Source: an uncultured Carboxylicivirga sp. (GTDB lineage Bacteria; Bacteroidota; Bacteroidia; Bacteroidales; Marinilabiliaceae). Taken from it: DNA of 64,000 bases. The DNA lies in assembly GCA_947503525.1 (NCBI GenBank), contig CANNEA010000001.1, positions 992,001-1,056,000 of the forward strand, in the 5' to 3' direction. Every line of letters begins with the position of its first letter. Position 1 is the first letter of the stretch. Position numbers and translations under genes: made by a program. The notes under the pieces were generated by a model. That model was not told the origin of the DNA. It worked only from the letters and a program-made list of their open reading frames with translations, and did not search any database. Positions 1 through 20,307 of this stretch are shown piece by piece.

Positions 1-1
1 T

Positions 2-619: not shown

Positions 620-668
620 ATTTTTCATAAGCGCCTGTTGATTCAGGTTTAATTTAGGTTAGTTAGAC

Positions 669-699
669 ATTTTCCGATTCCTCTTAGGAATCGGAAAAT
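669..699 (+). terminator. Perfect 14-bp hairpin without U-tract
   Basis: Bases 669-682 are exactly complementary to 686-699, with a 3-nt loop (CTT). No T-run follows, so a classical intrinsic terminator is doubtful. An mRNA-end-stabilising or partial attenuation element between the binding-protein gene and the first GH5 gene is likelier. Confidence 0.6.
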
Positions 700-809
700 T
701 CTAGCCAACAAGTATACTTTCTACTATATTGTAAATTCAATGTTTTAATGGCTTTTAAAGTAAGCTAGTAAGGATTATCATGTTTCAAAATGAACAATAC
801 TTGTTAATC

Positions 810-2573: not shown

Positions 2574-2615
2574 GGATTGGATTCAAAACAATTTTTTAAA
2601 CGAGGAAAGCGTATA

Positions 2616-3980: not shown

Positions 3981-4038
3981 GAATAGAATTTGATTTGAAA
4001 TTAACCTGACCTGGAATAAATTGATAAAATATTGGGAG

Positions 4039-4842
4039 ATGCACAAAAAAATTAGAAATACGAGTATGTTTCTTTTGCTGCTTTGTCTTGGATTATCATG
4101 CAATCAGGAAGAAGATTATAAGTTGGTCTGGAATGATGAATTCGAAAGCAACGGTCTTCCTGACTCCACCAAATGGAGTTACGATACAGAAGGTAACGCC
4201 TGGTCATGGGGGAATAATGAACTTCAGCAATATACTTCGCACCGAACGAAAAATGCCGAAGTTATTGATGGAAAGTTATTTATTACAGCTTTAAAGGAAG
4301 AAGGGTTTAATCAGGCCTATACTTCAGCTCGTTTAATAACAAGAGATAAAGGAGATTGGCTGTATGGAAAGATAGATGTTTGTGCCATGGTGCCCGGGGG
4401 AAAAGGGGCCTGGCCGGCTATATGGATGTTGCCAACAGATTGGGAATATGGCAACTGGCCAAAGAGTGGAGAAATAGATATTATGGAGCATGTGGGGTAT
4501 GAGCCGGATTCTTTATTTTTTTCCATTCATACCGAAGCATTTAATCATACGATAGGAACGCAAAAATCAGCTGCTATTTACGCACCTGATTCTGAAAAAG
4601 GGTTTCATGTTTATTCAATAGAATGGACAGCTAAACAATGCGATTTCTTTTTCGATAAAGAAAAGGTGTTTTCTTTTAAAAAGGGAAGTAATGGTTCATC
4701 TAAGTGGCCATTTGATAAACGGTTCCATCTTATCCTCAATGTTGCTATTGGAGGAAATTGGGGCGGAAAATTGGGTGTGGATGATGATATCTTTCCTTGC
4801 CAGATGGTAGTGGATTATGTAAGGGTTTACCAGAAACAGTAG
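4039..4842 (+). CDS. GH16 beta-glucanase lipoprotein, single domain
   Basis: This is a second GH16 enzyme, 267 residues, without the PKD repeats of its upstream paralogue. ATG 4039 gives MHKKIRN, a hydrophobic core and the lipobox LGLSC. The mature N-terminus CNQEED is acidic directly after Cys, like the surface-export signals known for Bacteroidota lipoproteins. The catalytic motif GEIDIMEHV places Glu145, Asp147 and Glu150. A flanking WPAIWMLP and the C-terminal VDYVRVYQ are typical of bacterial laminarinases and lichenases. Two tandem GH16 genes suggest division of labour, such as attacking different chain lengths or branched regions; this is inference. A TTG at 4021 is a less likely start. 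Confidence 0.9.
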   Translation: MHKKIRNTSMFLLLLCLGLSCNQEEDYKLVWNDEFESNGLPDSTKWSYDTEGNAWSWGNNELQQYTSHRTKNAEVIDGKLFITALKEEGFNQAYTSARLITRDKGDWLYGKIDVCAMVPGGKGAWPAIWMLPTDWEYGNWPKSGEIDIMEHVGYEPDSLFFSIHTEAFNHTIGTQKSAAIYAPDSEKGFHVYSIEWTAKQCDFFFDKEKVFSFKKGSNGSSKWPFDKRFHLILNVAIGGNWGGKLGVDDDIFPCQMVVDYVRVYQKQ

Positions 4843-4920
4843 GTAGAAAAATATAAAAGGACCAGTATTATTTTTTTGATGGTCCGAATATGATATAGAG
4901 CTAGAAAAAAACCAAATAAT

Positions 4921-7179
4921 ATGAAAACGATACAACTATTAAGTCTTGTGTTGATCGCAGGCTGGATGTTTGCTTGTAATGCACCAAAAGGTGAATTGGA
5001 TGAGCTGGATAAAAAAGTTGAAGAATTGTTAGGCCAAATGACCCTCGAGGAAAAAGTTGGTCAAATGAATCAATACAATGGATTTTACGACGTAACAGGG
5101 CCTGCACCATCAGCCGGTGATGCAAAAAATAAATATGACCATATCAAAAAAGGGTGGGTTGGTTCAATGCTAAACGTTCGCGGTGCAAAAAACGTGCGCG
5201 AAATGCAAAGTTTAGCTGTGGATAGTTCACGATTAGGAATTCCTATGATTTTTGGCTTTGATGTGATACACGGGCATAAAACACTTTCACCAATTCCTTT
5301 GGCAGAATCGGCAAGTTGGGATTTGGAAGCCATTGAAAAATCAGCGCGTATTGCGGCTATTGAGGCATCAGCGGAAGGTTTAAACTGGACTTTTGCACCA
5401 ATGGTAGATATTTCAAGAGATGCACGCTGGGGACGTGTAATGGAAGGTGCCGGCGAAGATACATATTTAGGAACTCGTATTGGCGTTGCTCGTGTAAAGG
5501 GCTTTCAGGGCGATGATTTATCTGCCAATAATACCATTGCTGCATGTGCCAAGCATTTTGCTGCCTATGGATTTGCCGAAGGTGGACGTGATTATAATAC
5601 TGTAGATGTTGGAACAGCTACTTTGTATAATGTGGTATTTCCTCCCTTTAAAGCTGCAATTGAAGAAGCGGATGTAAAAACCTTTATGAACTCATTTAAT
5701 ATTGTTAATGGAATTCCGGCAACCGGTAATTCATTTTTAATGCGTGATATACTTAAAGGAGAATGGGGTTTTGAAGGATATGTAATTTCTGATTGGAGTA
5801 GTGGTGAGGAAATGATTGATCATGGTTTTGCCCGCGATACTGCTCATGTTGCTCAACTGGCAGCCATTGCCGGATCGGATATGGATATGGAGTCCTATGC
5901 CTATGTCAAGTATTTGGCTAAACATGTTAGAGAAGGTAGAGTAGCAGAATCGGTAGTTGACGAAGCTGCAAGACGTATTTTAAAGGTTAAATTTGAATTG
6001 GGCTTATTTGATGATCCCTATAAGTATTGTGATGAAGCTCGTGAAAAAGAATTGATCTATCATCAGGACCATATGGATGCCGCCCTGGATATGGCTAAAA
6101 AATCAATCGTTCTGCTTAAAAACGAAAATAATACTTTACCCCTTTCTAAGGAACAGAAGAAAATTGCTGTTATCGGTACTTTAGCAAAGGATAAGGACAG
6201 CCCGCTTGGCAACTGGCGTATGGCCGGAGAGGATAATACTGCAGTATCGGTTCTTGAAGGTTTAGAAAAGTATACTTCTAACATAAAATATGCTGAAGGT
6301 GTTAAATTGGTTACAGGTCCTACGGCCTTTCCTATTGAGCTGGAAGTGAATGAAACTGATAGAAGTGGATTTAAGGAGGCTATTCGTCTGGCTAAAAAAT
6401 CAGAAGTTGTAATTATGGTGTTGGGAGAGCATGGACTTCATAGTGGAGAAGCTCGTTCTCGTGCTAATATTGATCTGCCCGGACTTCAGCAGGAGTTGTT
6501 GGAAGAAGTATATAAGGTAAATCAAAATATAATTTTGGTTCTTACCAATGGTCGTCCTTTAGCCATTACATGGGCGGATGAGCATTTACGTGCCATTGTT
6601 GAAGCCTGGCAACTGGGTACGCAGGCAGGTAACGCTATTGCTGAAGTTCTGTTTGGAGATTATAATCCATCCGGTAAATTACCTATGACATTTCCACGTC
6701 ATGTAGGTCAGGTGCCTATGTATTATAATTATTTCAATACCGGTCGCCCTGGTCCTGATGGTGAATTATTTTACCCACACTATATGGATGAGAGTCACTT
6801 GCCTTTGTATGCCTTTGGATATGGTTTAAGTTATTCTTCGTTTGAGTACTCCGATTTAAAGGTTCAGGTAGTGGATAAGGAAAATGTATCAGTGGAAGTG
6901 ATGGTAAAAAATACCAGCTCGGTTGATGGAGAAGAAGTGGTGCAATTATATATAAGAGATAGAGTAGCAAGTATTGTTCGCCCTGTTAAAGAACTAAAAG
7001 GATTTGATAAGATAAATCTTAAAGCAGGGGAAGCTCAAAGTGTAAGTTTTAAATTGAGTAAAAAGGAGCTTGGCTTTTATAATGGTAATGGTGAATTCTT
7101 ATTAGAGCCGGGTGATTTTGATGTTATGATTGGCGGAAGTTCCGACAAGGTTTTAACAGCCTCTTTTGTGTTGAATTAA
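4921..7179 (+). CDS. bglX: GH3 beta-glucosidase, BglX-like lipoprotein
   Basis: A 752-residue GH3 enzyme that removes terminal beta-glucosyl units from oligosaccharides. The N-terminus is a lipoprotein-type signal (MKTIQLL, then WMFAC). The order is a TIM-barrel domain (about 30-370), the alpha/beta sandwich (about 390-600) and a fibronectin-III-like domain (about 660-750). The nucleophile is Asp291 in YVISDWSS. The acid/base candidate is the Glu in the GEHGLHSGEARSR loop. KHFAAYG and GRDYN are the expected substrate-binding segments. Length and loop motifs match the BglX group. It begins 78 bp after the second GH16, and products of the GH16 enzymes are plausible substrates. A long stem-loop and T-run follow the stop codon. 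Confidence 0.9.
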   Translation: MKTIQLLSLVLIAGWMFACNAPKGELDELDKKVEELLGQMTLEEKVGQMNQYNGFYDVTGPAPSAGDAKNKYDHIKKGWVGSMLNVRGAKNVREMQSLAVDSSRLGIPMIFGFDVIHGHKTLSPIPLAESASWDLEAIEKSARIAAIEASAEGLNWTFAPMVDISRDARWGRVMEGAGEDTYLGTRIGVARVKGFQGDDLSANNTIAACAKHFAAYGFAEGGRDYNTVDVGTATLYNVVFPPFKAAIEEADVKTFMNSFNIVNGIPATGNSFLMRDILKGEWGFEGYVISDWSSGEEMIDHGFARDTAHVAQLAAIAGSDMDMESYAYVKYLAKHVREGRVAESVVDEAARRILKVKFELGLFDDPYKYCDEAREKELIYHQDHMDAALDMAKKSIVLLKNENNTLPLSKEQKKIAVIGTLAKDKDSPLGNWRMAGEDNTAVSVLEGLEKYTSNIKYAEGVKLVTGPTAFPIELEVNETDRSGFKEAIRLAKKSEVVIMVLGEHGLHSGEARSRANIDLPGLQQELLEEVYKVNQNIILVLTNGRPLAITWADEHLRAIVEAWQLGTQAGNAIAEVLFGDYNPSGKLPMTFPRHVGQVPMYYNYFNTGRPGPDGELFYPHYMDESHLPLYAFGYGLSYSSFEYSDLKVQVVDKENVSVEVMVKNTSSVDGEEVVQLYIRDRVASIVRPVKELKGFDKINLKAGEAQSVSFKLSKKELGFYNGNGEFLLEPGDFDVMIGGSSDKVLTASFVLN

Positions 7180-7187
7180 AAAGAATT

Positions 7188-7272
7188 GGGAGATCATGTT
7201 TTTTAGCTTAACCGGAATAAAGCTGAGAAGTATTTGAATAATCGCAGATTCACTTAATGATCTCCCTTTTTT
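7188..7272 (+). terminator. Long-loop intrinsic terminator after first GH3
   Basis: Bases 7188-7197 (GGGAGATCAT) pair perfectly with 7257-7266 and are followed by TTTTTT. The 59-nt loop contains a smaller nested hairpin (AGCTT paired with AAGCT). The T-run makes termination or partial read-through likely before the next GH3 gene. Confidence 0.6.
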
Positions 7273-7375
7273 AGATTTATTGGCTTTTAAATTGGGGATA
7301 CTGTATGCTAATTGCTCTGCATTTACTTATTGAAACTCTTGTGCCAAAGCTGAACATGAACTAAAATATTAACAG

Positions 7376-9763
7376 ATGAAGAGAGTACTAATATTAGCAA
7401 TTGTGATTATGGCTGGTATAAACTTGTCGGCACAGAATGAGAACATAAAAGAAAAGGTGGAGCTCCTGGTTTCACAGATGACTCTGGAAGAAAAAGTTTC
7501 GCTTTGCTCAGGTCGTGATGATTGGAGTACAGAACCCATTGAACGATTGAATATTCCATGGATCTGGATGGCTGACGGACCGCATGGTTTGCGTCGTGCC
7601 CCGGCAACCAATAAAGCAGGATACGGCGATCAGCATCCTGCAACTTGTTTTCCTACCGCATCTGCCTTGTCAGCAAGCTGGGATACTGATTTAATTTATC
7701 AGGTAGGTGAGGCCCTTGGTGAAGAGTGTCAGGCCCTGGGCGTTAATGTGTTATTAGGCCCTGGTGTTAATATTAAGCGATCAGTTCTGGGAGGACGTAA
7801 TTTCGAGTATTTTTCTGAGGATCCTATCTTATCGGGCGAACTGGGAGCAGCTTATATTAACGGAGTACAAAGTCAAGGTGTAGGAACATCATTAAAACAC
7901 TTTACGGCCAATAATGTGGAAACCATGCGTATGTTCATGAATTCGAATGTGGATTCGCGCACCTTGCATGAAATTTATTTAACTCCCTTTGAGATAGCCG
8001 TGAAGAAAGCCCAGCCATGGACTGTGATGGCTTGTTACAACCGTGTACAAGGTGAGTATGGAACTCAAAGCCCGCATTTGTTGACAAAGATCTTAAAGGA
8101 AGATTGGGGATTTGAAGGCATCGTTGTTTCCGATTGGTTTGCTGTTATCGATAGGGTTGAAGCATTAAAGGCAGGTATGCACATCGAGATGCCTCATGTG
8201 AGCAATGTTAATGATGAAATATTACTACAAGCTTTAAAAGATGAGCTGGTTGAAGAAGAGGTATTAGATAAGTTAGTGAAAGAAATATTGATGGTGGTAT
8301 TGAAAGCGAAATCATTGGATCGTGATGGAGTTGATCAAAATGTGGAAGAGCATCATCTCTTTGCTCGCGAGGTACATGCTCAAACAATTACTTTGCTTAA
8401 GAACGATAAGGGTGTATTGCCTGTTAGTAAGTCAAAATATAAAAAAATCGCCATCATTGGAGAGTTTGCTGCTAATCCTCGTTATCAAGGAAATGGAAGT
8501 TCAGAGGTTAAACCCACTCAATTGGATAATGTACTTGACATTGTTAAAAACGAATATGGAAAAGGCCTGAAAATTACCTATTCACAAGGTTATAGTTTAA
8601 AGGATGATAATGACTACAGTCTGATAGAAGATGCGGTTAAGGCCGCAGAAGATGCTGATCTGGCTCTTGTGTTTGTTGGACTGCCTCTACAATACGAATC
8701 AGAAGGTATCGATCGTAAGCATATTAATATGCCTGCTGCGCATAATAAGTTAGTTGAGGCTGTGGCTAAAGTACAATCTAATACAGTGGCTGTATTAACC
8801 AATGGTAGCGCTGTTGCCATTCCATGGCTTAATCAGGTTGATGGTGTGCTGGAAACATGGTTGGGAGGTCAGGCAGGTGCGGGAGCAGTTGCTGATGTAC
8901 TATTTGGTGTGGTCAATCCATCGGGTAAATTGGCGGAAACTTTTCCTCAGAAATTAGCCGATACACCTGCTGCATTTAATTTTCCCGGTGAACAGGGAGA
9001 GGTCTTGTATGGTGAGCGTATTTTTGTTGGTTACCGCTACTATGACGAGAAACAAATTGAACCTTTATTTCCTTTTGGTTATGGATTATCTTATACCAGC
9101 TATGAATATTCCGACTTAAAAGTTTCGCAGGATGTAATTAACGACAAGGATGTACTTCAGCTTAGTTTAAAAGTAAAAAATACCGGAGACATAAGGGGTA
9201 AGGAAATTATTCAGATTTACGTATCAGATGAAGCCTGCACCTTACAAAGACCTCAAAAGGAATTAAAAGCCTTTAAGAAAGTAGAATTAGCTCCGGGAGA
9301 AAGCAAAGAAGTCACCTTTCAACTTAAGGGTAGAGATTTTTCATATTACGATGCAAAGCGCTCAATGTGGATAGCGGAGAGTGGAGAATTTACAATCTCA
9401 GCTGCTGCCTCCTCCAGAGATATTCGTGAAAGTGTTTCTGTTCGCTTGAATTCAACTCAGAAAGTTCCGTTGATGGTGGATGAGTATACTTTTGTTAAGG
9501 AGCTTTGGGACAATACGGATACTCGTGAGCTACTGAAGGAGTATATGCCAAATTGGATTGGCGGATGGGTACCCGAGGGTAAAAGCACCGATGAAGCCAA
9601 TATTCCGGGATTCTTCCTGGAACATCCACTGATTAAATTTCCTTATATCACGCATGATGAATTCAGTCATAAGGAAGTGAAGGAATTAATCGAAAGATGT
9701 AAGGATATTTACTATACTCCTGAATTTAAGACCTATGAGGAGAAAGAGAATGTTTCATTCTAA
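7376..9763 (+). CDS. GH3 beta-glucosidase with C-terminal extension
   Basis: A 795-residue exported GH3 enzyme. The signal peptide is MKRVLIL, a hydrophobic core and NLSAQN, which is SPI type without a lipobox Cys. The barrel carries MADGPHGLR and the nucleophile Asp253 in IVVSDWFA. The alpha/beta sandwich and fibronectin-III-like domain follow (LFPFGYGLSYTSYEYS, then ADEACTLQRPQKELKAF-type strands). About 90 extra residues after the fibronectin-like domain include PNWIGGWVPEG. A tail of this kind occurs in part of GH3, with no role I can assign. The family hydrolyses beta-1,2-, 1,3-, 1,4- or 1,6-gluco-oligosaccharides, so specificity is not resolved. It is preceded by a terminator-like structure and followed by a second one, so it may be expressed as its own unit. 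Confidence 0.88.
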   Translation: MKRVLILAIVIMAGINLSAQNENIKEKVELLVSQMTLEEKVSLCSGRDDWSTEPIERLNIPWIWMADGPHGLRRAPATNKAGYGDQHPATCFPTASALSASWDTDLIYQVGEALGEECQALGVNVLLGPGVNIKRSVLGGRNFEYFSEDPILSGELGAAYINGVQSQGVGTSLKHFTANNVETMRMFMNSNVDSRTLHEIYLTPFEIAVKKAQPWTVMACYNRVQGEYGTQSPHLLTKILKEDWGFEGIVVSDWFAVIDRVEALKAGMHIEMPHVSNVNDEILLQALKDELVEEEVLDKLVKEILMVVLKAKSLDRDGVDQNVEEHHLFAREVHAQTITLLKNDKGVLPVSKSKYKKIAIIGEFAANPRYQGNGSSEVKPTQLDNVLDIVKNEYGKGLKITYSQGYSLKDDNDYSLIEDAVKAAEDADLALVFVGLPLQYESEGIDRKHINMPAAHNKLVEAVAKVQSNTVAVLTNGSAVAIPWLNQVDGVLETWLGGQAGAGAVADVLFGVVNPSGKLAETFPQKLADTPAAFNFPGEQGEVLYGERIFVGYRYYDEKQIEPLFPFGYGLSYTSYEYSDLKVSQDVINDKDVLQLSLKVKNTGDIRGKEIIQIYVSDEACTLQRPQKELKAFKKVELAPGESKEVTFQLKGRDFSYYDAKRSMWIAESGEFTISAAASSRDIRESVSVRLNSTQKVPLMVDEYTFVKELWDNTDTRELLKEYMPNWIGGWVPEGKSTDEANIPGFFLEHPLIKFPYITHDEFSHKEVKELIERCKDIYYTPEFKTYEEKENVSF

Positions 9764-9788
9764 GGAAGTTTTATAAACGCATTGAGGA

Positions 9789-9836
9789 GTATTGGAAGTA
9801 TATTGTTTTATGAAATACTTCCAATATTTCTTTTAA
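9789..9836 (+). terminator. Intrinsic terminator or attenuator after second GH3
   Basis: Bases 9790-9801 pair perfectly with 9815-9826 (12 bp, core ATTGGAAGTAT) around a 13-nt loop. TTTCTTTT follows. It lies between GH3 and GH5 genes on the same strand. Confidence 0.65.
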
Positions 9837-9903
9837 TTAATCAAAGGAATTACAGCACAACTCAGTTTTTAATCTAAACCTATTGCCCTGTAAAATTACC
9901 CCA

Positions 9904-11865
9904 ATGAATACACTAAAATACATTATTGTATTTGCTTTTCTGATGCTTACAAACCAAATGTGGGCTCAGATAACACCTATGGAGGCCATTGAGCAAATGG
10001 GTCGAGGTATTAACCTTGGAAACACATTGGAGGCTCCGAAAGAAGGTGAATGGGCATCTAAAGCACAAGAACACTTTTTTGATGATTACAAAACAGAGGG
10101 CTTTTCTACCATAAGAATACCGGTTCGTTGGTATCCATATACAGCCGAGCAAGCGCCTTACAAAATTGAAGAATCCTGGATGGATCGGGTTGAAGAAGTG
10201 CTTGACTGGGGACTAGCTCAAGACTTCTATATTATCCTAAACATTCATCACTCCTCGCCAATTAAGGAAGATTACAATGGACAGATAGCAAGGTATGAGG
10301 CCATATGGACACAGATCGTAGATCGTTTTAAGGGCAAAAGCGAACGTTTGTTTTATGAAATGATTAATGAACCAAAAGGCTTTACTCAAGCTCAAATCAA
10401 TGACTTTAATGAACGAATACTTAAAATTATCCGCCAGGAAAATGCGCAACGTATCGTAATTTTTGGAGGACATGAATGGTCAAATTCGGCTGAGCTGATT
10501 ACTCCAAACTTAATTATACCTGATGATGATTATGTGATGGGATACTTTCACTCATACGATCCCTGGTCCTTTGCCGGTGAAGGAACAGGAACATGGGGAA
10601 CTGAAAGCGATAAAGCTGAATTGCAAAATAAATTTGAGGGAGTAGCCAACTGGTCAAGCCAAAATAATGTACCCGTCTTTTTAGGTGAATTTGGAGCAAC
10701 TAATGTGGATAGTGATTTGAATTCGAGGTATAGACACTATGCCGCCTATGTGAAAAATTGCCTTGTTCATAATATGGCCTTTGCCGTTTGGGATGATGGA
10801 GGTTGGTTTGAAATTTATAATAGGAATGCACGATCGTGGAATGAATTCAAAGATATAGTACTTCATTATTCGCCTCAAAGTCCAACAAATATAGAAGCAG
10901 AATCTACATCAGAAGGAGATGTGTACTTGAAGTGGCTAAATAGCTATAGCGATTATCAGAAATTGGTGATTCAACGCAAAAAAGCTTCTGAGGATTATAT
11001 CAATCTAATTGAATTAGCTGCTGATCAGGAAGAATATCTGGATGAAGAGGCCGGTGAAGGTGTACACTACCATTATCGTGTATTGGCGCATCGTAAAGAT
11101 ACGGCCATCACCTATTCTTATCCCCAATATATTTATGCTAAAAAACTTGTTAGAAAGCCTTTTAATAATTGGCCATTAAGTATTCCAGGTACAATTGAAG
11201 CTGAAGAGTTTGATGATGGGGGTGAAGGCTTAAGTTACCACGATACGGACATGGGTAATACGGGTGAAGCCTTCAGAACAGATGTTGATGTTGACATTGA
11301 GAAGCGAGATGACGGCGCTTATCATGTTGGATGGATTGAAGATGGCGAATGGCTTGAATACTCAGTAAGTGTTGATGAAAATGCTGAATATCGCATCGAA
11401 TTGCATGTTGCTGCCATGGAAGCCGGAGGTAAAGTAAAGCTTAAAGTGGGCCCCAATGAATCAGATGTACTCGATGTTCCTTCAACAAATAGCTGGCAAA
11501 CAACTACGCAGCTCGTAACCTTGATGAATTTAGATAAAGGTGATCATATACTGAGACTGCAATTCCCAAAGGGTGGCTTTAATCTGGATAAGCTAAAGGT
11601 AAGCTACAGTGATGTAGGTATATTATCTAATTCTGCTCTTTCTTTTAATATCTATCCTAACCCGGGCACGGATTTTGTGAATATCGACGGAGTTGAGGCC
11701 AATGCCATACAAACGATGGATATATATGATGTGGGTGGGCAAAAAGTTAAGTCGATACATAGTTATACACCAGTAAATATAAGCAGTTTAAAAAATGGCA
11801 TGTATTATATACACATCACTGATAATCAAGGTAAGGTGTATGTCAGTAAGTTTTTAAAAAAGTAA
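9904..11865 (+). CDS. GH5 endoglucanase with CBM6 and T9SS C-terminal sorting domain
   Basis: A 653-residue secreted enzyme. ATG 9904 precedes a signal peptide (MNTLKYI, hydrophobic core, WAQ). A TTG at 9883 is rejected because it would add seven residues before it. The GH5 catalytic domain spans about 20-330, with MGRGINLGNTLE, acid/base Glu156 in MINEPKG and nucleophile Glu262 in FLGEFGA. A fibronectin-like segment (about 335-415) follows. Then comes a CBM6-like jelly roll (about 425-570; IEAEEFDDGG, GWIEDGEWLEYS). The last 75 residues begin FNIYPNPG and end VSKFLKK, the classic type A T9SS sorting domain. The protein should therefore cross the outer membrane through T9SS and be released or anchored outside, unlike the lipoprotein GH16 enzymes. 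This GH5 resembles cellulase-type endo-beta-glucanases more than the first GH5 does. Confidence 0.9.
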   Translation: MNTLKYIIVFAFLMLTNQMWAQITPMEAIEQMGRGINLGNTLEAPKEGEWASKAQEHFFDDYKTEGFSTIRIPVRWYPYTAEQAPYKIEESWMDRVEEVLDWGLAQDFYIILNIHHSSPIKEDYNGQIARYEAIWTQIVDRFKGKSERLFYEMINEPKGFTQAQINDFNERILKIIRQENAQRIVIFGGHEWSNSAELITPNLIIPDDDYVMGYFHSYDPWSFAGEGTGTWGTESDKAELQNKFEGVANWSSQNNVPVFLGEFGATNVDSDLNSRYRHYAAYVKNCLVHNMAFAVWDDGGWFEIYNRNARSWNEFKDIVLHYSPQSPTNIEAESTSEGDVYLKWLNSYSDYQKLVIQRKKASEDYINLIELAADQEEYLDEEAGEGVHYHYRVLAHRKDTAITYSYPQYIYAKKLVRKPFNNWPLSIPGTIEAEEFDDGGEGLSYHDTDMGNTGEAFRTDVDVDIEKRDDGAYHVGWIEDGEWLEYSVSVDENAEYRIELHVAAMEAGGKVKLKVGPNESDVLDVPSTNSWQTTTQLVTLMNLDKGDHILRLQFPKGGFNLDKLKVSYSDVGILSNSALSFNIYPNPGTDFVNIDGVEANAIQTMDIYDVGGQKVKSIHSYTPVNISSLKNGMYYIHITDNQGKVYVSKFLKK

Positions 11866-11886
11866 ATTAATATAAACAGCAGGGTG

Positions 11887-14067
11887 ATGAAGATGAGATA
11901 TCTGGTATTGTTGATTGCCTTTATGGCAATAGGTCAGCTGAAAGCTCAGTCTGATGAGACTTTAATTGATGAGAAGATTGAAACGATTTTAAAGCAGTTG
12001 ACGCTTGAGGAAAAAGTAAAAATGTGCCATGCACAATCAAAATTTAGTTCACCTGGAGTGGAGCGTTTGGGCATACCTGAGATATGGATGTCGGACGGGC
12101 CGCACGGCGTGCGCGCTGAAATTGCATGGGATGCCTGGAATCATGCCGGATGGACAAATGATTCTTGTACGGCTTTCCCGGCCTTAACCTGTTTGGCGGC
12201 TACCTTTAATCCTGATTTGTCATATAAATATGGTGTAGCTATTGGGGAAGAGGCACGCTATCGTAAAAAAGATATTTTGTTAGGACCAGGAGTTAACATT
12301 TACCGCACGCCACTAAACGGACGCAACTTCGAATACATGGGCGAGGACCCTTACCTGGCTTCAGTAATGTGTGTACCCTACATAAAAGGTGTTCAGACTA
12401 ATGGGGTGGCGGCATGTGTTAAACATTATGCTCTCAATAATCAGGAAGTTTGGCGTTCGCATATTAATGTGCAGTTAAGTGACAGAGCCTTGCACGAGAT
12501 TTATCTGCCAGCCTTTAAAGCCGCTGTTGAAGATGGTGGTGTATGGTCAATTATGGGCGCCTATAATAAATATAATGGACAACATACGAGTCATCATGAG
12601 GTGTTGATCAACGACATCTTAAAAGGAGACTGGGGTTTTGATGGTGTTGTGGTAACCGACTGGGGAAGTGCTCATGATACCAAGGAAGCCGCCTTAAATG
12701 GATTGGATATTGAGATGGGTACCGGAACAGATGGACTAACATCTTCAACTGAAAATGCCTACGACTATTATTACCTGGCCAAGCCATTTCTGGAAATGAT
12801 TAAAAGTGGTGAGATTGACGAAAGTGTGGTGGATGATAAAGTTCGTAGGATCTTACGCTTGATGTTTCGTACCAATATGGATAAAAATAGGTCGTTCGGA
12901 CGAAAAGCTAATCAAGAGCACTTTGATGTGGCAAGAGAGGTGGCACAGGAGGGTATTGTTCTGCTTAAGAACAATAGGAATTTCTTTCCATTAAATCCGG
13001 AGACTGATCAAAGCATTGCTGTTATTGGTGAAAACGCCACCAGAATGATGACTGTTGGAGGAGGCTCATCAGAGCTTAAAACAGTTCATGAGATTTCTCC
13101 ATTGGAAGGAATTAAAAAGAGATTTGCAAAGGCCAATGTTACTCATGCCATGGGTTATTCATCCGGGCCGTCGGTATATGGCAGAGTTCTACCATCTGAT
13201 CTAGATCAGGATAAATTAAAAAAGGAAGCACTTGAATTGGCTAAAACAGCTGATGTGGTGATTTTTGTTGGAGGTCTTAATAAAAGCCATGAACAGGATT
13301 GTGAAAACGGTGATCGCAAGAGCCTTAATTTACCATTCGGTCAGGATAAATTACTAAATGAAATAATGGCTGTTAATAAAAATGTGGCTGTTATATTGGT
13401 AAGCGGAAATGCTGTTGCCATGCCATGGCAAGATAAGGCCAAAGCCATAGTGCAGGCCTGGTATCTGGGCAGTGAAACCGGTCATGCTTTGGCCGATGTA
13501 TTATCCGGTGACGTTAATCCGTCGGGTAAATTACCATTTTCATTTCCTGTTAACTTAGAAGATAATGGTGCCCATGCCTTCGATGAATTGTCTTATCCGG
13601 GTGATGGTGTCAATCAAGTGTATAAGGAAGATATATTAGTGGGTTATCGTTGGCACGATACCAAGGCTATTAAACCTTTGTTTGAATTTGGTTTTGGAGA
13701 ATCTTACACGCAATTTGAAATTAAGGAAGCTACAACTGATAAGAGTAACTATAAGTCGGGCGAAGAGATCAGAGTTAGTGTTGAGTTGAAAAATAAGGGC
13801 AAAACCAAAGGCGCTGAAGTAGTGCAAGTATATCTTGGTGAGATAGATGCTGAGGTTCTTCGACCGGAGAAAGAGTTAAAGGCCTTTAAGAAAGTAGAAT
13901 TAGAAGCCGGGCAGAGTCAAATTGTGCATTTAAAGGTTCCGGTTGATCACCTGGCCTACTATGATGAAGCCACTGGTAATTGGAAGCTTGATCAGGGACA
14001 ATTTAAAATAAGCGTTGGTCGTTCATCACGACTAATAGATGAAGAGCTGAATATTACAGTAAGATAA
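11887..14067 (+). CDS. GH3 beta-glucosidase
   Basis: The third GH3 of the locus, 726 residues, begins 21 bp after the GH5-T9SS gene, so the two are probably cotranscribed. ATG 11887 is taken; GTG 11884 and ATG 11893 are alternatives differing by one or two codons. The signal peptide ends QLKAQSD. Conserved parts are MSDGPHGVR, LLGPGVNIYRTP, the nucleophile Asp258 in VVVTDWGSAHD, GGGSSEL in the sandwich domain and a C-terminal fibronectin-III-like domain. It is no close duplicate of the other two GH3 proteins, as loop motifs differ throughout, so a separate linkage preference is likely. It is the last gene before the 2-kb gene-free island and is followed by a terminator. Confidence 0.88.
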   Translation: MKMRYLVLLIAFMAIGQLKAQSDETLIDEKIETILKQLTLEEKVKMCHAQSKFSSPGVERLGIPEIWMSDGPHGVRAEIAWDAWNHAGWTNDSCTAFPALTCLAATFNPDLSYKYGVAIGEEARYRKKDILLGPGVNIYRTPLNGRNFEYMGEDPYLASVMCVPYIKGVQTNGVAACVKHYALNNQEVWRSHINVQLSDRALHEIYLPAFKAAVEDGGVWSIMGAYNKYNGQHTSHHEVLINDILKGDWGFDGVVVTDWGSAHDTKEAALNGLDIEMGTGTDGLTSSTENAYDYYYLAKPFLEMIKSGEIDESVVDDKVRRILRLMFRTNMDKNRSFGRKANQEHFDVAREVAQEGIVLLKNNRNFFPLNPETDQSIAVIGENATRMMTVGGGSSELKTVHEISPLEGIKKRFAKANVTHAMGYSSGPSVYGRVLPSDLDQDKLKKEALELAKTADVVIFVGGLNKSHEQDCENGDRKSLNLPFGQDKLLNEIMAVNKNVAVILVSGNAVAMPWQDKAKAIVQAWYLGSETGHALADVLSGDVNPSGKLPFSFPVNLEDNGAHAFDELSYPGDGVNQVYKEDILVGYRWHDTKAIKPLFEFGFGESYTQFEIKEATTDKSNYKSGEEIRVSVELKNKGKTKGAEVVQVYLGEIDAEVLRPEKELKAFKKVELEAGQSQIVHLKVPVDHLAYYDEATGNWKLDQGQFKISVGRSSRLIDEELNITVR

Positions 14068-14089
14068 AACCTTAGAAGTGTTATTTAAT

Positions 14090-14126
14090 GCCTGCTTCCG
14101 TTTACATGGGAGTGGGCGTTTTTTTT
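14090..14126 (+). terminator. Intrinsic terminator at end of glucan locus
   Basis: GCCTGCTTCC (14090-14099) pairs imperfectly with GGGAGTGGGC (14108-14117), and eight T residues follow. It closes the plus-strand polysaccharide locus. Confidence 0.6.
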
Positions 14127-14498
14127 AAGCGACTTTAAGTATTTAACTGCTGTTTTTTATCTGTTGTCCCAGGATTTTCCATTTGAATAAAGTCAAATAG
14201 AATAAACAATTTACGTTTGGGAAAAAAGTCGCACCCTCATGCCTTCTTTTGTCTCTGGCTGTCCTGCGACTTTGAGCAGGTATTGGTATTGTTTTTCAAA
14301 AATTCTCTGCGCCTCTGTGCCCCTGTGTTCCATTTCATTTATCTTCATATTAGAGTTTTTTCCTTTTTGTCATTGCCACAAAAAGAAAGAAAAAAGTCTA
14401 GCCGAGAAGATGACCCTCACACTCTTCCCAATTGTCATTAATTCTAAAGAAGTAAGATGTTCTGCGAACATAAAGGCAAGCCCCTTCTTTGAATTAAT

Positions 14499-14530
14499 AT
14501 GCCAATTGGAAATTCACACCCCATTGGCAT
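14499..14530. repeat. 8-bp inverted repeat, ATGCCAAT/ATTGGCAT
   Basis: ATGCCAAT at 14499-14506 is complementary to 14523-14530 around a 16-nt spacer inside the repeat island. It is not associated with a gene end and its function is unknown. Confidence 0.4.
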
Positions 14531-14630
14531 CTCCTCCTCGGCAGGCCAACGCTCTGTGATCCGGTGTACTTATATCTTTCTATGGATTGACTATTCCTTA
14601 GTAAGCCCAAAGGGCTTTAAGCCATAATAG

Positions 14631-14658
14631 CCCCAGGCAAACGTAGTGCCGCCTGGGG
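14631..14658. repeat. CCCCAGGC hairpin repeat
   Basis: CCCCAGGC (14631-14638) pairs with GCCTGGGG (14651-14658) around a 12-nt loop, just upstream of the second module A copy. Its GC-richness contrasts with the AT-rich surroundings. It resembles a REP-type palindromic unit. Confidence 0.5.
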
Positions 14659-15417
14659 TATAATACGTTTGGGAATAAAGTCGCACTCTCATGCCTTGTT
14701 ATATCTTTGGCTGTCTTGCGACTTTGATGCTGATCCTCTTTCTTGTGCCTCCGCGTCTGAATGTTTCGAAACTGCGTTTCGATTAGGGTAAAAAAAGGTT
14801 TAATGATAATGGGGGAGCCTATTAATCATTTGCAGGAGGTTCTATTCAGTCTTTTGTTCTAATGAAACTCTGTACCTCTGCGCCTCTGCGTTTATTTTGT
14901 TTGTATTGCAAAGGAGCTGCTCCTTACTGATTTCTACTTTCTTTGTCTGCCAAACAAAGAAAGTATGCAAAGAAAATTCACCACGAATTACGATTTTCTG
15001 AAATGTTTAAGTCAGCTGAAATAATGCGGTATGGAGTCGGTAGCATTTCAGACAAATCCGCACAATTCGTGCCTACCTGCTGTAGGCAGGGACAGCTAGC
15101 GCACTTGCAAGTTTTGATAATTTGCATCTAAAGCATTCAGCATAGAGTATTATGAAATGATGTATTTATTTGTAGAATGTTCTAATCAGTCTTTTGTTCT
15201 AAAGAAACTCTGTGTCTCTGCGCCTCTGTGTTTATTTTATCTCTGACTGTCGATGTTTCGAAACTGCGTTTCAATTTGGGAATAAATGGTTTAACCCGGA
15301 TATATACATTTAATAAAATCAATTAGCATATACGATTAAGGATTAATACTAATAGCTAATGTTGAATATTTCAATGATTCCTATTGAATAATTCAGGTTT
15401 AAAGAGAGTTCTTCTTT

Positions 15418-15552
15418 GCGATTAGCGAATTATCATTGCTCTTGGCCAATTCGTGTGCGCCGGCAGCGAATTGCTAATGACTTTAAGCGAACCTTTTGGT
15501 AATTAAGCGAACAGCGAATGTAGTGTAGCGAACTTTCCGGTACTTGAGCGAA
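15418..15552 (-). repeat. Left arm of divergent helically phased motif array (AGCGAA)
   Basis: AGCGAA or a close variant starts at 15424, 15444 (GGCCAA), 15465, 15486, 15506, 15527 and 15547. Intervals are 20, 21, 21, 20, 21 and 20 bp, with one extra copy at 15513. Upstream of several copies, at four bases' distance, lies ATGTA or a relative (15518-15522, 15497-15501). Read on the minus strand this is the same TTCGCT-N4-TACAT motif as the right arm. The 20/21 alternation keeps helical phase but not reading frame. Confidence 0.8.
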
Positions 15553-15577
15553 ATACAATTGTAAATCAACATTTGCT

Positions 15578-15772
15578 TTTCGCTCTAATACATGGCTTTT
15601 TCGCCACTCTACATACTCATCTCGCCGGCTTACATGAGCTTTTCGCTGCCCTGCAGGTGTGTTTCGCTAGCCTACAAGTTCATTTCGCATACTTGCATAC
15701 GCATTTCGCTGCCTTACATGTGCATTTCGCTAGAATACATACTTGTTTCGCCGCCTAACGATGCCTTTCGCA
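15578..15772 (+). repeat. Right arm of the phased array: 21-bp units TTTCGC-N5-TACAT
   Basis: Ten units start at 15578, 15599, 15620, 15641, 15662, 15683, 15704, 15725, 15746 and 15766. The spacing is exactly 21 bp eight times and 20 bp once. Positions 1-6 are TTTCGC in nine units (TCTCGC in one). Positions 12-16 are TACAT or a one- to two-base variant in most. The other bases vary. 21 bp equals two helical turns and TACAT sits about one turn from TTTCGC. The orientation is opposite to the left arm. Confidence 0.88.
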
Positions 15773-15963
15773 ACCAAACATGTGCTTACCCTTTCAAACA
15801 ATGGAAGAATGTTTGCTTACAATTGTATCTTGCTGCATTCAAGCCCATTTCGCCATAATGCATGCGTGTTTCGCTGCCTAACGATGCCTTTCGCAACCAA
15901 ACATGTGCTTATCCTTTCACAAAATGGGAGAATGTTTGCTTACAATTGGATCTCGCTGTATTC
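15745..15963 (+). repeat. Direct duplication of a ~96-bp segment, 123-bp offset
   Basis: Bases 15745-15840 recur at 15868-15963 with few substitutions. Shared blocks include CCTAACGATGCC, CAACCAAACATGTGCTTA and GTTTGCTTACAATTG. The second copy extends the TTTCGC array (units at 15848, 15869 and 15889, plus TCTCGCT at 15951). This is array growth by segmental duplication. Confidence 0.85.
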
Positions 15964-16186
15964 TGACTGTGATTGCCCTAAATATTTGAATTTCTAATAA
16001 CTGTTTGACGACTTCTTCCAACTGAGCTTATTAATTCTATTATAATAATTGTCATTCGCTATGTTTTTTATTCTACGATAGAGCTTATCGGAAACATGAT
16101 ATTTGTTAAGATTTTGATATTGCATGCTTGGAGTGTGATAATTTAAATTTTCAATTCCTATCTTCGAAGTACTAAATATTTAAATT

Positions 16187-19117
16187 ATGCAAAAAGTATT
16201 GATAAACTTATTCTTACTATCATCCTTTTTATTGCTCAATATTAATGGAGCTAAGGCTGATGGCAAGAAAAAGATGGATTATACCATTTATGACAATTGG
16301 AAATCGATTGATCGAGGATATACAATATCAAATGACGGACAGTTTGTGTCCTATGTGATTAAGCCGCAATATGGTGATTCGTATTTGTATGTGTATAATG
16401 TACATAAGCAGAAGTTAGATTCAGTTCCAAGAGGTAAATCACCGATGTTCTCACCGGAAGGCAATTTTCTGACATATAGAATATCGGCACATGCGGATTC
16501 TATCCGACAGTTAAAATTGAAAAAGGTTAAAAAAGATAAACTTCCAAAAGATTCCCTATTTATTCAAAATCTGAATACAGGCGAGATAAAAAAAATAGCA
16601 AATCTTCATAAATGGAAGGGCGCTAAAGATGGTGGAGATTGGTTAGCTTACATTCTGGACAAGGAAATTAAAAAGAAAGAGGAAAAGAAAGATACGGCTA
16701 TTGTGAAAGGCTCTGAAATGGCTAAAGGCAATAAAGAAGAAAAATCTACTGCCGGTGAAGTGAAGGAAGTAAGTAGCTTGAACGAAGAAGAAGCTGAAAA
16801 GAAAGAAAAGAACGAAGAGAAGAAAAAGGATAAAAAGAAAAAGAAAAGTTTTAAATCAAAGGGTAAACCTTTAGTGTTCTATCGACCATCGACGGGCGAT
16901 AGTTTATATGTTGAAAAGGTAACTCACTATGCCATTGCAGAGTTAGGAACATCCGCATTTGTTGTGCAAAGTGTAGGTGATACTACAGAGGTATCAATGG
17001 TACTGAAGTTCGATCCTGGGACTTTTACTGTGGATACTATTTTTAATGAAATTGGTAAGATTGCAAAAATAAGCAGTGATTATAAAGGAACGCAATGTGC
17101 TTTTTTATTTAACAACGATACTTCAAAGGTAAAGGTGGATCGCTTGTATCATCTGGGAGCGAAAATGAAAGCTCCTGTACAAATTCTCGATACAATACAT
17201 CCTGCTTTATCATCGGAATGGTCAGTATTATCCAAGGGTAGTTTATCATTTTCCAGAGATGGATCTAAGCTATACTTTGGAGCTGGAATTCGCCCAACAG
17301 AGCAACCTAAGGATACATTAACTTCAGACGAAATAGCGCATGTTGATGTATGGAATTGGTTGGATAAGGAGATACAACCCATGCAAAAGAAAAATTTAGC
17401 TAAGGCTAAAGATCCGGCCTATAAGTGTGTGTATCATATTAAAGACAGCAAAGTGGTTGTGCTTGAGTCTGAAAAATTTAAAAATGTAACAGTTCCGGAT
17501 AAAGGCAATCTGAATGTTGGTTTTGCTTTTGTAAGTGATCCATATAAAAGAGCCCAGTCATGGTCGGGGAAATGGTCCAATGATGTATATAAAGTGGATA
17601 TTTCAACAGGCGCAAAGAGCTTATTGAAAGAAAATATCAACGGATCTTCTTCCTTTTCTGAAACAGGCAAATGGTTTGTTTACTACGAATATGCTGATCA
17701 AAGTTTCTATTCCTTAAACGTGACTACTGGTGTTGCTACTAATTTAACAAAAGACCTGACTGTTTCCTTTGTTAACGAAATACATGATACTCCAAGCGAT
17801 CCCAGGGCATATGGAATAGTGGATTTTACGAAAGATGATAAATCAGTATTGGTTTATGATCGCTATGATATCTGGAAGTTGGACTTAATGGGTAAGAAAG
17901 CCCCTGTTTGCCTGACGAAAGGACAGGGACGTGAAACAAATACGGCTTTCAGGTACCTTAAACTGGACAAGGAAGCAAGCAGTATTGATTTAAAAAATGA
18001 ATTGTTATTAAAGTCATTTAATGATCTTAATAAGAAGTCGGGTTATTACAAACTAAATAAATCAGAGCTAAGTAAGATAATTGAAGGCGATTACAGCATT
18101 TATAACCCTTTGAAGGCAAAAGAAGCTGATGTTTATTTATGGCGTAAATCTACCTTTAAAAATTATCCTGAAATTCGACTTAGTGATGCATCATTTAGTA
18201 ATGAAAAGGTAATTTCAAATACTAATCCTCAACAAAAGGATTATGTATGGGGAGATATTCAATTGGTTGATTGGGTAGCCTCAGATGGATTAGTTCATCA
18301 GGGCTTATTGGTAACTCCTGAAAATATGGATCCAACGAAAAAATATCCAATGATCTCCTACTTCTATGAGCGTTATTCCGATAACCTGCATAATTACCGT
18401 TCGCCTGCACCGAGTCGCTCAACTGTAAACTGGAATTTTTATGCATCCAATGGCTATGTCATTTTTATCCCGGATATTTATTATCGCGATGGTGATCCGG
18501 GTTTGTGTGCTTATGAGGCGGTGGTTAGCGGATGTTTAGCCATGTCTGATCAATTTGACTTTATTGATCGTGAGCATATGGGAATTCAAGGCCAGAGCTG
18601 GGGAGGATATCAGGTGGCACATTTGGTGACCCGAACCAATTTATTCAAAGCTGGTATGGCTGGTGCTCCGGTTAGTAATATGACCAGTGCATACGGTGGT
18701 ATTCGATGGGGATCAGGTATGAGTAGAATGTTTCAGTATGAGCATACCCAAAGTCGTATTGGAGGAACTTTGTGGGAAAAGACTAATAAATACATTGAAA
18801 ACTCACCTGTATTTTTTACCCCTCAAGTGGAGACGCCTTTGTTGATGATGCATAACGATAAAGATGGTGCAGTGCCATGGTATCAGGGAATAGAATATTT
18901 TATGGCTTTACGTCGTTTGGATAAACCGGCCTGGTTATTGGTTTATAACGATGAAGATCATAACCTGACGCGAAGGGCGAACTCAAAGGATTTAAGCCGT
19001 AGAATGATGCAGTTTTTTGATCACTATCTGAAAGGAGCTGCAATGCCTGTTTGGATGCATGATGGTATACCTGCGGTCAAGAAGGGTAAAGATCTGGGAT
19101 ATGATTTAGTTGAGTAG
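16187..19117 (+). CDS. S9 family serine peptidase (prolyl oligopeptidase / DPP4-like)
   Basis: A 976-residue exported peptidase that cleaves short peptides, often after proline. The signal peptide is MQKVLIN, a hydrophobic core and GAKAD. A beta-propeller-like region spans about 40-690. The C-terminal alpha/beta hydrolase domain carries the triad Ser804 (GQSWGGY), Asp893 (MHNDKDGAVPW) and His925 (NDEDHNL). Residues from about 160 to 225 are an insertion made almost only of Lys, Glu, Asp and Ser, longer than usual for S9 proteins, and it interrupts a propeller blade region. The gene stands alone on its strand and ends in a strong terminator. The peptide substrate is unknown, and nothing nearby connects it to the glucan locus. 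Confidence 0.88.
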   Translation: MQKVLINLFLLSSFLLLNINGAKADGKKKMDYTIYDNWKSIDRGYTISNDGQFVSYVIKPQYGDSYLYVYNVHKQKLDSVPRGKSPMFSPEGNFLTYRISAHADSIRQLKLKKVKKDKLPKDSLFIQNLNTGEIKKIANLHKWKGAKDGGDWLAYILDKEIKKKEEKKDTAIVKGSEMAKGNKEEKSTAGEVKEVSSLNEEEAEKKEKNEEKKKDKKKKKSFKSKGKPLVFYRPSTGDSLYVEKVTHYAIAELGTSAFVVQSVGDTTEVSMVLKFDPGTFTVDTIFNEIGKIAKISSDYKGTQCAFLFNNDTSKVKVDRLYHLGAKMKAPVQILDTIHPALSSEWSVLSKGSLSFSRDGSKLYFGAGIRPTEQPKDTLTSDEIAHVDVWNWLDKEIQPMQKKNLAKAKDPAYKCVYHIKDSKVVVLESEKFKNVTVPDKGNLNVGFAFVSDPYKRAQSWSGKWSNDVYKVDISTGAKSLLKENINGSSSFSETGKWFVYYEYADQSFYSLNVTTGVATNLTKDLTVSFVNEIHDTPSDPRAYGIVDFTKDDKSVLVYDRYDIWKLDLMGKKAPVCLTKGQGRETNTAFRYLKLDKEASSIDLKNELLLKSFNDLNKKSGYYKLNKSELSKIIEGDYSIYNPLKAKEADVYLWRKSTFKNYPEIRLSDASFSNEKVISNTNPQQKDYVWGDIQLVDWVASDGLVHQGLLVTPENMDPTKKYPMISYFYERYSDNLHNYRSPAPSRSTVNWNFYASNGYVIFIPDIYYRDGDPGLCAYEAVVSGCLAMSDQFDFIDREHMGIQGQSWGGYQVAHLVTRTNLFKAGMAGAPVSNMTSAYGGIRWGSGMSRMFQYEHTQSRIGGTLWEKTNKYIENSPVFFTPQVETPLLMMHNDKDGAVPWYQGIEYFMALRRLDKPAWLLVYNDEDHNLTRRANSKDLSRRMMQFFDHYLKGAAMPVWMHDGIPAVKKGKDLGYDLVE

Positions 19118-19138
19118 AAGCTTGTTAATATATAATAT

Positions 19139-19168
19139 AAAACGCTGCCTAAGGGCAGCGTTTTTTTT
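19139..19168 (+). terminator. Intrinsic terminator of S9 peptidase gene
   Basis: CGCTGCC (19143-19149) pairs with GGCAGCG (19154-19160) around a TAAG loop. Flanking AAAA and a run of eight T complete the structure. Confidence 0.9.
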
Positions 19169-19233
19169 GTGAAATTATTAATATCGAAATAAATATTTTA
19201 TGTTAGTTTTAGGGTTCTAAACCTCAACTAAAA

Positions 19234-20307
19234 ATGAAGAAGAATATAATTCTGGTATTATTGACATTCTGTTTTATTACTGTTTATTCACAAGATTATT
19301 TACTTGGTAAGATAATTACGGTTGATCAAGATACGATTAAGGCTGTCTTAAAAAAGGATTGGAATAATTCTGCCTTTAACAATATTTCATATCAGAGGGA
19401 GCCTTCTTCACAAGAGACTTTAGAACTAAAAAAAGAGAATATCTTATTGTTATATTTTGATGCCCTTGATTTGACTTTTGAAGGACTTGAAGTAGATAAT
19501 GAGTCCGTCATTGTGAAAAGGCTGGTAGAAGGTCGATTAAGTTTATATGAAATTGAAGATAAGTGGGATGATTGTCAATTCCTGGTTAAAGATAGTTTGT
19601 CAGTTTATAAATTAAGGCTTGTAACTAAGGTAGAGGATGGAGTGAAGCGAGAATATAAAAAGTATATTAATATGCTGACTTTTTTAATGCAGGATTGTTC
19701 TGATGCCACATCCCGGCAAATCTCCAAGACTGCATACTCCGCAATGGATCTCTCAGGTTTAATAATGGCCTATAACAGTTGTTTTCAAAATAACAATAAA
19801 GGGTTAGTTGATAATTTAAATAGTATTGAAGAAGATAGATTCAATGCTTCAAATGGTAAATTAATATTAGGCTTTGGAGGAGATGTAGTTGGCGCTGGAA
19901 ATTATAGTTTTGGATTAGGAACTGATCTAGGGTATTTCTTTGGTAAGCCTAATTCAATATTTAAATTTGGCTTTAATTCAGGTTTGTTGTTTTATAGCGG
20001 AAAGTCACAAACTTTTTCAGCTTCAGGAAGCGGTTTTGGGTTTAGTTCAGAATTCACAACAAAGGATTTATTTATTGTTCCGATATCAGGAGTTCTACGA
20101 TTAAATATTGCAAATGTAGCTGAAATAGGATCTGACATTGGTACGGCTCTTATTTTTAATGGAGGTAATGGCTCGGGATGGTACTTTAAACCCCATTTAA
20201 ATATTAAGTTATCAAGAAAAGCTATGATTCAAATTCTTTACAGAAATGTAGATTTGGGCAGAGATAATTTAGAAACATTGGGGGCCGGAATTCACTTTAT
20301 ACTTTAA
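19234..20307 (+). CDS. Exported protein of unknown function, possible outer-membrane barrel
   Basis: I do not recognise a family. The 357-residue product has a clear signal peptide (MKKNIIL, hydrophobic core, VYSQD). The first ~190 residues are mixed polar sequence. From about residue 205 the chain alternates short hydrophobic and Gly/Ser/Phe-rich strands (GFGGDVVGAGNYSFGLG, SGLLFYSGKS, GAGIHFIL), with an aromatic or hydrophobic C-terminus ending in Leu. That pattern fits a small outer-membrane beta-barrel, which is inference. It lies between two terminators and is therefore probably monocistronic. Confidence 0.55.
   Translation: MKKNIILVLLTFCFITVYSQDYLLGKIITVDQDTIKAVLKKDWNNSAFNNISYQREPSSQETLELKKENILLLYFDALDLTFEGLEVDNESVIVKRLVEGRLSLYEIEDKWDDCQFLVKDSLSVYKLRLVTKVEDGVKREYKKYINMLTFLMQDCSDATSRQISKTAYSAMDLSGLIMAYNSCFQNNNKGLVDNLNSIEEDRFNASNGKLILGFGGDVVGAGNYSFGLGTDLGYFFGKPNSIFKFGFNSGLLFYSGKSQTFSASGSGFGFSSEFTTKDLFIVPISGVLRLNIANVAEIGSDIGTALIFNGGNGSGWYFKPHLNIKLSRKAMIQILYRNVDLGRDNLETLGAGIHFIL

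Follow-up and report, generated by a model that had tools for sequence, protein, structure and literature searches.

A non-coding array of TTCGC words lies between two genes of the window (the whole stretch of 64,000 nucleotides that was analysed); the words are set in two opposite arms, follow each other in steps of 20-21 bp, and leave a core of 26 bp where the arms meet. This type of array belongs with the PQLLE gene family (NCBIfam NF052641). Relatives keep the same design before PQLLE genes, and for this reason a docking platform for a protein is a probable role. We consider it moderately probable that the window array is a cis-acting DNA platform, in which many sites on one face of the helix serve one DNA-binding protein or assembly. 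The window copy stands without a PQLLE gene, so that its place in the class rests on the shared word and geometry.

The left arm (15424..15552, minus strand) carries AGCGAA words, which are TTCGC on the minus strand. The first-pass annotation had described seven of these words at a spacing of 20-21 bp. Seven are indeed present and the phase holds, but the successive steps are 41, 21, 20, 7, 14, and 20 bp: six words are in phase (starts at 15424, 15465, 15486, 15506, 15527, and 15547), the word at 15513 is an off-phase extra, and one in-phase unit is absent. The core (15553..15578; 26 bp) extends from the inner GCGAA (15548-15552) to the inner TTCGC (15579-15583), and corresponds to the inversion between oppositely oriented arms that had been pointed out before. 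The right arm (15578..15771, plus strand) consists of ten units, as had been claimed, with starts at 15578, 15599, 15620, 15641, 15662, 15683, 15704, 15725, 15746, and 15766; nine of them are TTTCGC, but the unit at 15620 reads TCTCGC. The steps are 21 bp, except for the final step of 20 bp. Three outer TTTCGC units (15848..15894, plus strand; starts at 15848, 15869, and 15889) begin 82 bp past 15766 and keep the phase. A tandem duplication of 123 bp (15723..15963, plus strand; two copies, 88% matches) carries them in its second copy; both the duplication and these units fell within the span first described but were omitted from the reasoning on it. With the outer units included, the right arm has 13 units, one being TCTCGC. 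The invariant part of the array is 5-6 bp, and the spacers of 14-16 bp are partly shared.

The best-fit period of the left arm (six in-phase units) was 20.53 bp with a coherence of 0.998, where 95% of random placements were below 0.82; that of the right arm (13 units) was 20.74 bp with a coherence of 0.980, where 95% of random placements were below 0.62. The longest phased chain in the array region was 9, compared with at most 2 in 2000 mononucleotide shuffles of its bases; the phasing is better than in shuffled sequence of the region. In a 400-kb sample of the own genome, which took in bases 1-20000 of the window, chains of at least five exact hexamers at periods of 9-69 bp were confined to the two arms. 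The self-match score of the window was 5.40, against a 95th percentile of 1.40 for the controls. When the nine 21-bp units were compared, the six columns of the hexamer contained only one of the 53 differences from the consensus; none of 20000 permutations gave a 6-column run as low, a value which is indicative, as the units may share ancestry. Stop codons occur in all six frames of 15424-15957, with 3 to 9 per frame, and the mixed 20/21 bp steps break the frame, in agreement with the argument made at the outset; a coding tandem repeat was rejected on these grounds. Chance and coding are excluded as the origin of the window array.

The word TACAT had been placed about one turn from TTTCGC. It occurs at an offset of exactly 11 in five of the 13 right-arm units, with TACAA in one more, and at that offset in one of the six in-phase left-arm units; the placement is therefore correct for a minority of units. 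TACAT is the window's own, and relatives show GGT or GGTTTG near that place. This word is outside the general design of the arrays. As a second half-site it was rejected, being confined to the window and to a minority of the units there.

The array is flanked by a GH3 (glycoside hydrolase family 3) gene (11884..14067, plus strand) and an S9 (prolyl oligopeptidase) peptidase gene (16187..19117, plus strand), both of which are outside it. The ~2.1 kb between these genes is free of long ORFs, apart from a frame of 106 aa (14239-14559) and, within the array, two of 84-88 aa. A dispersed repeat is seen in the same intergenic region, with near-identical CTCTGYGCCTCTGYGTTTATTTT-type stretches at 14846-14900 and 15188-15242, and TGTTTCGAAACTGCGTTTC is present there in two near-identical copies at 14763-14784 and 15254-15275. 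The S9 gene has orthologues in all 13 congeners. A DNA search of the own genome (G000) returned the window array alone, with no second locus, and a DNA search of the 13 congeners gave no counterpart, only one weak 35-base match. The TTTCGC triplet pattern was found in none of the 13, and no array was seen by eye upstream of the S9 orthologues among the congener sequences listed, which represent part of the 13. The first-pass annotation had proposed a search for the motif in the rest of the genome and in relatives, and the outcome in close relatives is mixed. Neither this locus nor an exact TTTCGC pattern is present in the 13 congeners, but TTCGC arrays are located elsewhere in two of them (G008 and G009), and a looser TTCGC pattern found further arrays in the family.

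This looser pattern, which calls for three TTCGC words 20-21 bp apart, matched 15 of the 71 family genomes searched. Twenty regions were taken up, and five were dropped by eye, namely L454 (one arm), L459 and L460 (single orientation), L467 (inside a likely gene), and L468 (a different repeat); the other 15 and the window make up 16 loci. In 14 of the 16 loci, the window included, the arms are divergent and the core measures 26-28 bp (modulo 20.5). The two misses are L461, which is without an exact left arm, and L463, which has a core of 21.5 and one left unit. It should be mentioned that the second arm and the core were not part of the search pattern. The 13 further divergent arrays are from six other genomes and have the same 20/21-bp steps and the 26-28 bp core, with diverged spacers; this recurrence of the layout supports the earlier proposal of a helically phased, divergent element at the DNA level. 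By genome, the loci are distributed as follows: the window in G000, five loci in G676 (Marinilabiliaceae record JAEINY010000101.1, identical with L151), four in G681, two of which are near-duplicates, one locus shared by the congeners G008 and G009, and loci in G693 and G694.

The steps in these arrays were 20 bp in 44 cases and 21 bp in 56 cases, and in L449 the two follow each other in strict turn. Skipped units stay in phase (41 bp in ten cases; 62 and 82-83 bp in six cases), under a chain rule that permitted skips of 40-42, 60-63, and 80-84 bp only. The start-to-start distance from the inner GCGAA to the inner TTCGC is 31-33 bp, and the core corresponds to about three turns. TTCGC alone is fixed over 149 units, as imposed by the search, and the remainder is genome-specific.

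The word TTTCGC is not special in the window's order, because the reversed hexamer is as frequent there: TTTCGC arrays were found in 18 of 393 genomes and arrays of the reversed hexamer in 16 of 393, a control which itself picks up some TTTCGC-rich repeats. TTTCGC as a special word of the whole order was thus unsupported. A pattern scan of viral contigs, run without a matched control, gave 104 stretches, and that of genome contigs gave at least 120, including simple 7-bp repeats, coding repeats, and chance matches. Among 137 variable arrays from mixed taxa, 63 overlapped a mechanically defined ORF and 74 were between two such ORFs; the arrangement of the ORFs around these 74 (tandem pairs, 25 and 19; convergent, 23; divergent, 7) is suggestive only. 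In L251, a second array with a period of ~21/42 bp and the word TTGAACCGACC / CCGAATTGT directly follows the TTTCGC array.

The TTCGC array is immediately upstream of a PQLLE gene in four of the 13 further arrays (L458, L462, L465, and L466), and TTCGC arrays upstream of PQLLE were also recognised by eye at L476 and L477. This link to a gene family had escaped the first-pass annotation. PQLLE was absent from the DNA examined around 10 of the 14 divergent arrays. To our knowledge, the PQLLE family has no known function. The gene at these loci encodes a protein of ~217 aa, and the L462 protein matches NF052641 with an E value of 1.6e-71. The median pI of the PQLLE proteins is 5.6, with a spread from about 5 to above 9, and their net charge is -3. 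Pfam profiles gave no above-cut-off match for these proteins and no DNA-binding domain. The search for a solved relative gave none: the sole match was a human Hook3 fragment (E 0.034), which was taken as chance and rejected as a relative. The PQLLE protein may not be the binder, because it is on the whole slightly acidic and has neither a Pfam DNA-binding domain nor a solved relative. PQLLE genes are present in 48 of the 71 family genomes, often several in each. G000 has five, which are away from the window array; in the 64 kb of the window, frames of 40 aa or more gave no match to PQLLE, as a gene or as a relic, at E values up to 1. Searches of plasmids, of phages, and of viral contigs likewise gave no PQLLE gene.

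PQLLE genes of this order are usually preceded by an array of the same geometry with its own motif. Chains of exact 5-mers with a period of 19-21 were found in 10 of 30 PQLLE loci, where the background was 3 (period 20-21) in 780 kb. Of 45 PQLLE genes from 40 further loci, which overlap the first 30, 16 have such a chain, all of them upstream. The mean self-match over 45 PQLLE upstream regions peaks at lags of 20-21, 41-42, and 62-63. When 67 distinct PQLLE genes were compared with 67 intergenic control regions, each 300 bp or longer, 50 of the 67 upstream regions exceeded the 95th percentile of the controls (Mann-Whitney P 7e-17, uncorrected for kinship; the counts are not independent, because the genes are related). 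This threshold is exceeded by 40 of the 46 genes that have PQ close to the C-terminus and by 10 of the 21 that do not; the 17 genes below it include 11 of the 21. A cruder test of the upstream periodicity gave 42/54 against 13/86. In a set of 62 genomes, nine over-cut-off PQLLE genes, which are from other families, were found in seven. Lag 21 is among the three best lags in all nine, four of which are from genomes chosen regardless of arrays, and a sub-cut-off gene in G023 gave no lag-21 peak. Tandem pairs of PQLLE genes with unlike C-termini were observed at L500 (G000), L528 (G010), L538 (G013), L526 (G002), and L509 (G009); in several tandem pairs, one gene is without a clear upstream array.

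In L462 (G009) and L466 (G008), the order on the minus strand is a cas9-like ORF, the array, PQLLE, a REP-transposase-like gene, and cas1, and in L458 (G681) it is cas9, the array, PQLLE, and the transposase-like gene. By profile, both cas9 and cas1 were confirmed in L466, cas9 also in L458, and cas1 also in L462. At these three loci, the array, the PQLLE gene, and the REP-transposase-like gene are inside or beside type II CRISPR-Cas operons.

The 11 PQLLE genes nearest to the TTCGC-linked ones have kept arrays, often with inverted arms, and the motifs differ (judged partly by eye). The TTCGC word is found in L469, L470, L473, and L477 and partly in L476; other words are found in L471, L472 (TGTAA), L474 (GGATG or GGCGG), L475, L478, and L479. 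Some of the lags listed for the TTCGC loci among these 11 were displaced by marker characters. The arrays persist while the words differ; in other words, the geometry is better kept than the sequence.

Phased TTTCGC arrays are also abundant in the Bacillaceae, in the order of Neobacillus sp. SuZ13. In 249 genomes of this order, the TTTCGC triplet at 20-21 bp gave 545 matches in 54 genomes, compared with 99 matches in 18 genomes for the reversed hexamer (counts summed by eye) and with 13 matches in 10 genomes for TTTCGC at 23-24 bp, several of which are Ala-rich coding sequence. The order was picked after the pattern scan had shown it, so that its richness is not unbiased; the internal controls stand. 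The extended units are lineage-specific, with 21-bp steps in Neobacillus, 20-bp steps in Rossellomorea, and both in Salipaludibacillus. PQLLE was found in 0 of 17 array-rich Bacillaceae genomes. In SuZ13 (L198, genome G406), all 35 TTTCGC triplet matches share a strand and fall between 3.92 and 5.90 Mb of C1, the 6.1-Mb chromosome; this clustering possibly reflects replichore polarity. The Neobacillus loci L320, L161, L174, and L401 contain blocks of 5-6 TTTCGC units every ~150-200 bp with a shared inter-block piece, and this two-level repeat resembles the 123-bp duplication of the window.

The array might be a decaying minisatellite, i.e., a functionless tandem repeat of 20-21 bp, produced by slippage or unequal exchange and now drifting. 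The 123-bp duplication represents recent local copying, related genomes commonly contain homogeneous tandem repeats of 20-21 bp (e.g., L269, L254, and L263), the window array is missing from the 13 congeners, and the reversed hexamer forms phased triplets about as often as TTTCGC in the order, all of which would suit such an origin. However, the differences between units avoid the hexamer, and the arrays are concentrated upstream of one gene family. In addition, slippage predicts neither opposite arms with an equal core length in seven genomes nor the steady 20/21 alternation of L449, and we regard a minisatellite as unlikely. It is very unlikely that the array is a miniature mobile element (MITE) that contains tandem repeats, as BrickBuilt of Porphyromonas gingivalis does. 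The copies in one genome have the motif and geometry in common, but not the sequence; the own-genome search gave the window locus alone, and inspection of the loci by eye showed neither a common leader nor a common tail, the related flanks being unlike. The arrays are intergenic, with several copies in G676 and G681, as would be expected of such an element, and a REP-associated transposase-like gene (sub-cut-off matches to NF047646) adjoins three PQLLE-array loci; this gene is missing, however, from the other listed array flanks.

At the RNA level, the arms might pair as a long imperfect hairpin in a transcript, or the array might act in the 5' untranslated region of the next gene. Plus-strand RNA from 15418-15960 gave a better fold than each of 100 dinucleotide shuffles (z -2.65), and the central 156 bases of the window array gave z -7.2 against local shuffles, the strongest value of 13 arrays. 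Seven of these 13 are below z -2, but six are above it, three of them near 0. Arm complementarity beyond the motif was not raised, since the spacers of matching units gave 0.333 in register (39 pairs) and 0.327 off register (288 pairs), with the register uncorrected for three arrays in which the inner unit is missing. Some of the PQLLE arrays reach to within ~50 bp of the start codon, which is consistent with an untranslated region, whereas single-orientation arrays also exist and pairing needs no strict two-turn period. Rfam gave no match at E 0.1, and a known RNA family was rejected accordingly. An RNA role seems quite improbable, and it is less likely than the DNA platform.

In the platform reading, subunits would bind each word cooperatively on the same face of the helix, and two oppositely oriented rows of protein would meet at the core. 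The assembly might bend, bridge, or silence the DNA. A platform before a PQLLE gene may control that gene, and the orphan copy in the window could be a distant site for this type of protein, or a remnant after loss of PQLLE. We infer the binding, the binder, and the function of the array; by analogy, face-aligned sites, opposite rows, and a fixed core would be the needs of a cooperative DNA-protein assembly. Such an assembly might work like iterons or parC, as a multi-site nucleoprotein platform, and the cooperative protein binding or centromere-like role suggested at the outset may apply. Iterons are the nearest measured precedent: in the sections of PMC4980987 cited here, binding of Rep to iterons is cooperative and is abolished by a half-turn displacement.

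We propose here the class name "PQLLE-associated phased array". The window has the divergent array phased at ~20.5 bp, and a PQLLE gene is not directly downstream of it. As a more tentative idea, which we hold to be possible but somewhat doubtful, PQLLE and the arrays may constitute a self-contained chromosomal system of Bacteroidales. Each gene would then bring a two-turn-phased, often divergent platform, with the geometry selected and the word replaced repeatedly, so that every paralogue has sites of its own; the orphans would be dispersed targets, and the Bacillaceae arrays an independent invention. Open-licence literature gave no description of such arrays or of PQLLE. If the proposal is true, a gene family without a function gains a defined DNA partner, and its role becomes directly testable. 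For a binding site, it is unusual that the geometry is kept and the motif rapidly replaced; this suggests either a conflict or that paralogues escape cross-talk with each other. Two congeners have the array and PQLLE inserted between cas9 and cas1, and another genome has them downstream of cas9; the pair may thus be connected with defence loci. The Bacillaceae arrays suggest that arrays of this two-turn type extend more widely in the intergenic DNA of bacteria and have been overlooked there.

Several known systems resemble the array in part. CRISPR arrays have near-identical repeats of ~20-50 bp and unique spacers of ~30 bp; a CRISPR array was rejected, as the window array has only 5-6 invariant bp and its short spacers are partly shared. 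REP/RAYT elements have palindromic units of ~20-40 bp with a GTAG-type foot, and were likewise rejected, the window units being non-palindromic TTCGC words. Centromeres of the ParR/parC type are phased repeats of ~10-20 bp beside the gene of the binder, sometimes in two blocks. The present arrays are similar in that phased repeats, sometimes in two blocks, adjoin a gene, but they have no partition gene in the listed flanks, none was found on a plasmid, and several PQLLE paralogues are found per chromosome.

BrickBuilt of P. gingivalis, as far as described in the cited part of PMC4596501, has a 23-nt unit without a spacer, a leader, a tail, and terminal inverted repeats, and forms one sequence family. 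It shares with the arrays the occurrence in Bacteroidales, the intergenic location, the imperfect tandem repeats, and the several copies, but in that part it has a single orientation, whereas the arms are divergent here; G000, moreover, gave one locus in the DNA search. The TAACTGA heptamers are adjacent direct repeats in unrelated phyla including Bacteroidetes, for which an RNA-level role was proposed (MacGregor 2015, PMC4679880, in the portion cited). As in our arrays, a short word is located between genes, often upstream of start codons, but the heptamers in that account are adjacent, without two-turn spacing or divergent arms. Compared with plasmid iterons, the arrays are chromosomal and dispersed, with two opposite arms, 5-6 conserved bp, and a locus-specific motif, and no rep-like gene or origin was recognised beside them (GH3 and S9 in the window; other flank ORFs were called mechanically and mostly read by eye). 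The spacing itself is that of iterons: they are direct repeats of 17-22 bp, spaced to let a protein sit on one face of the helix, and the period of the window array is 20.5-20.7 bp.
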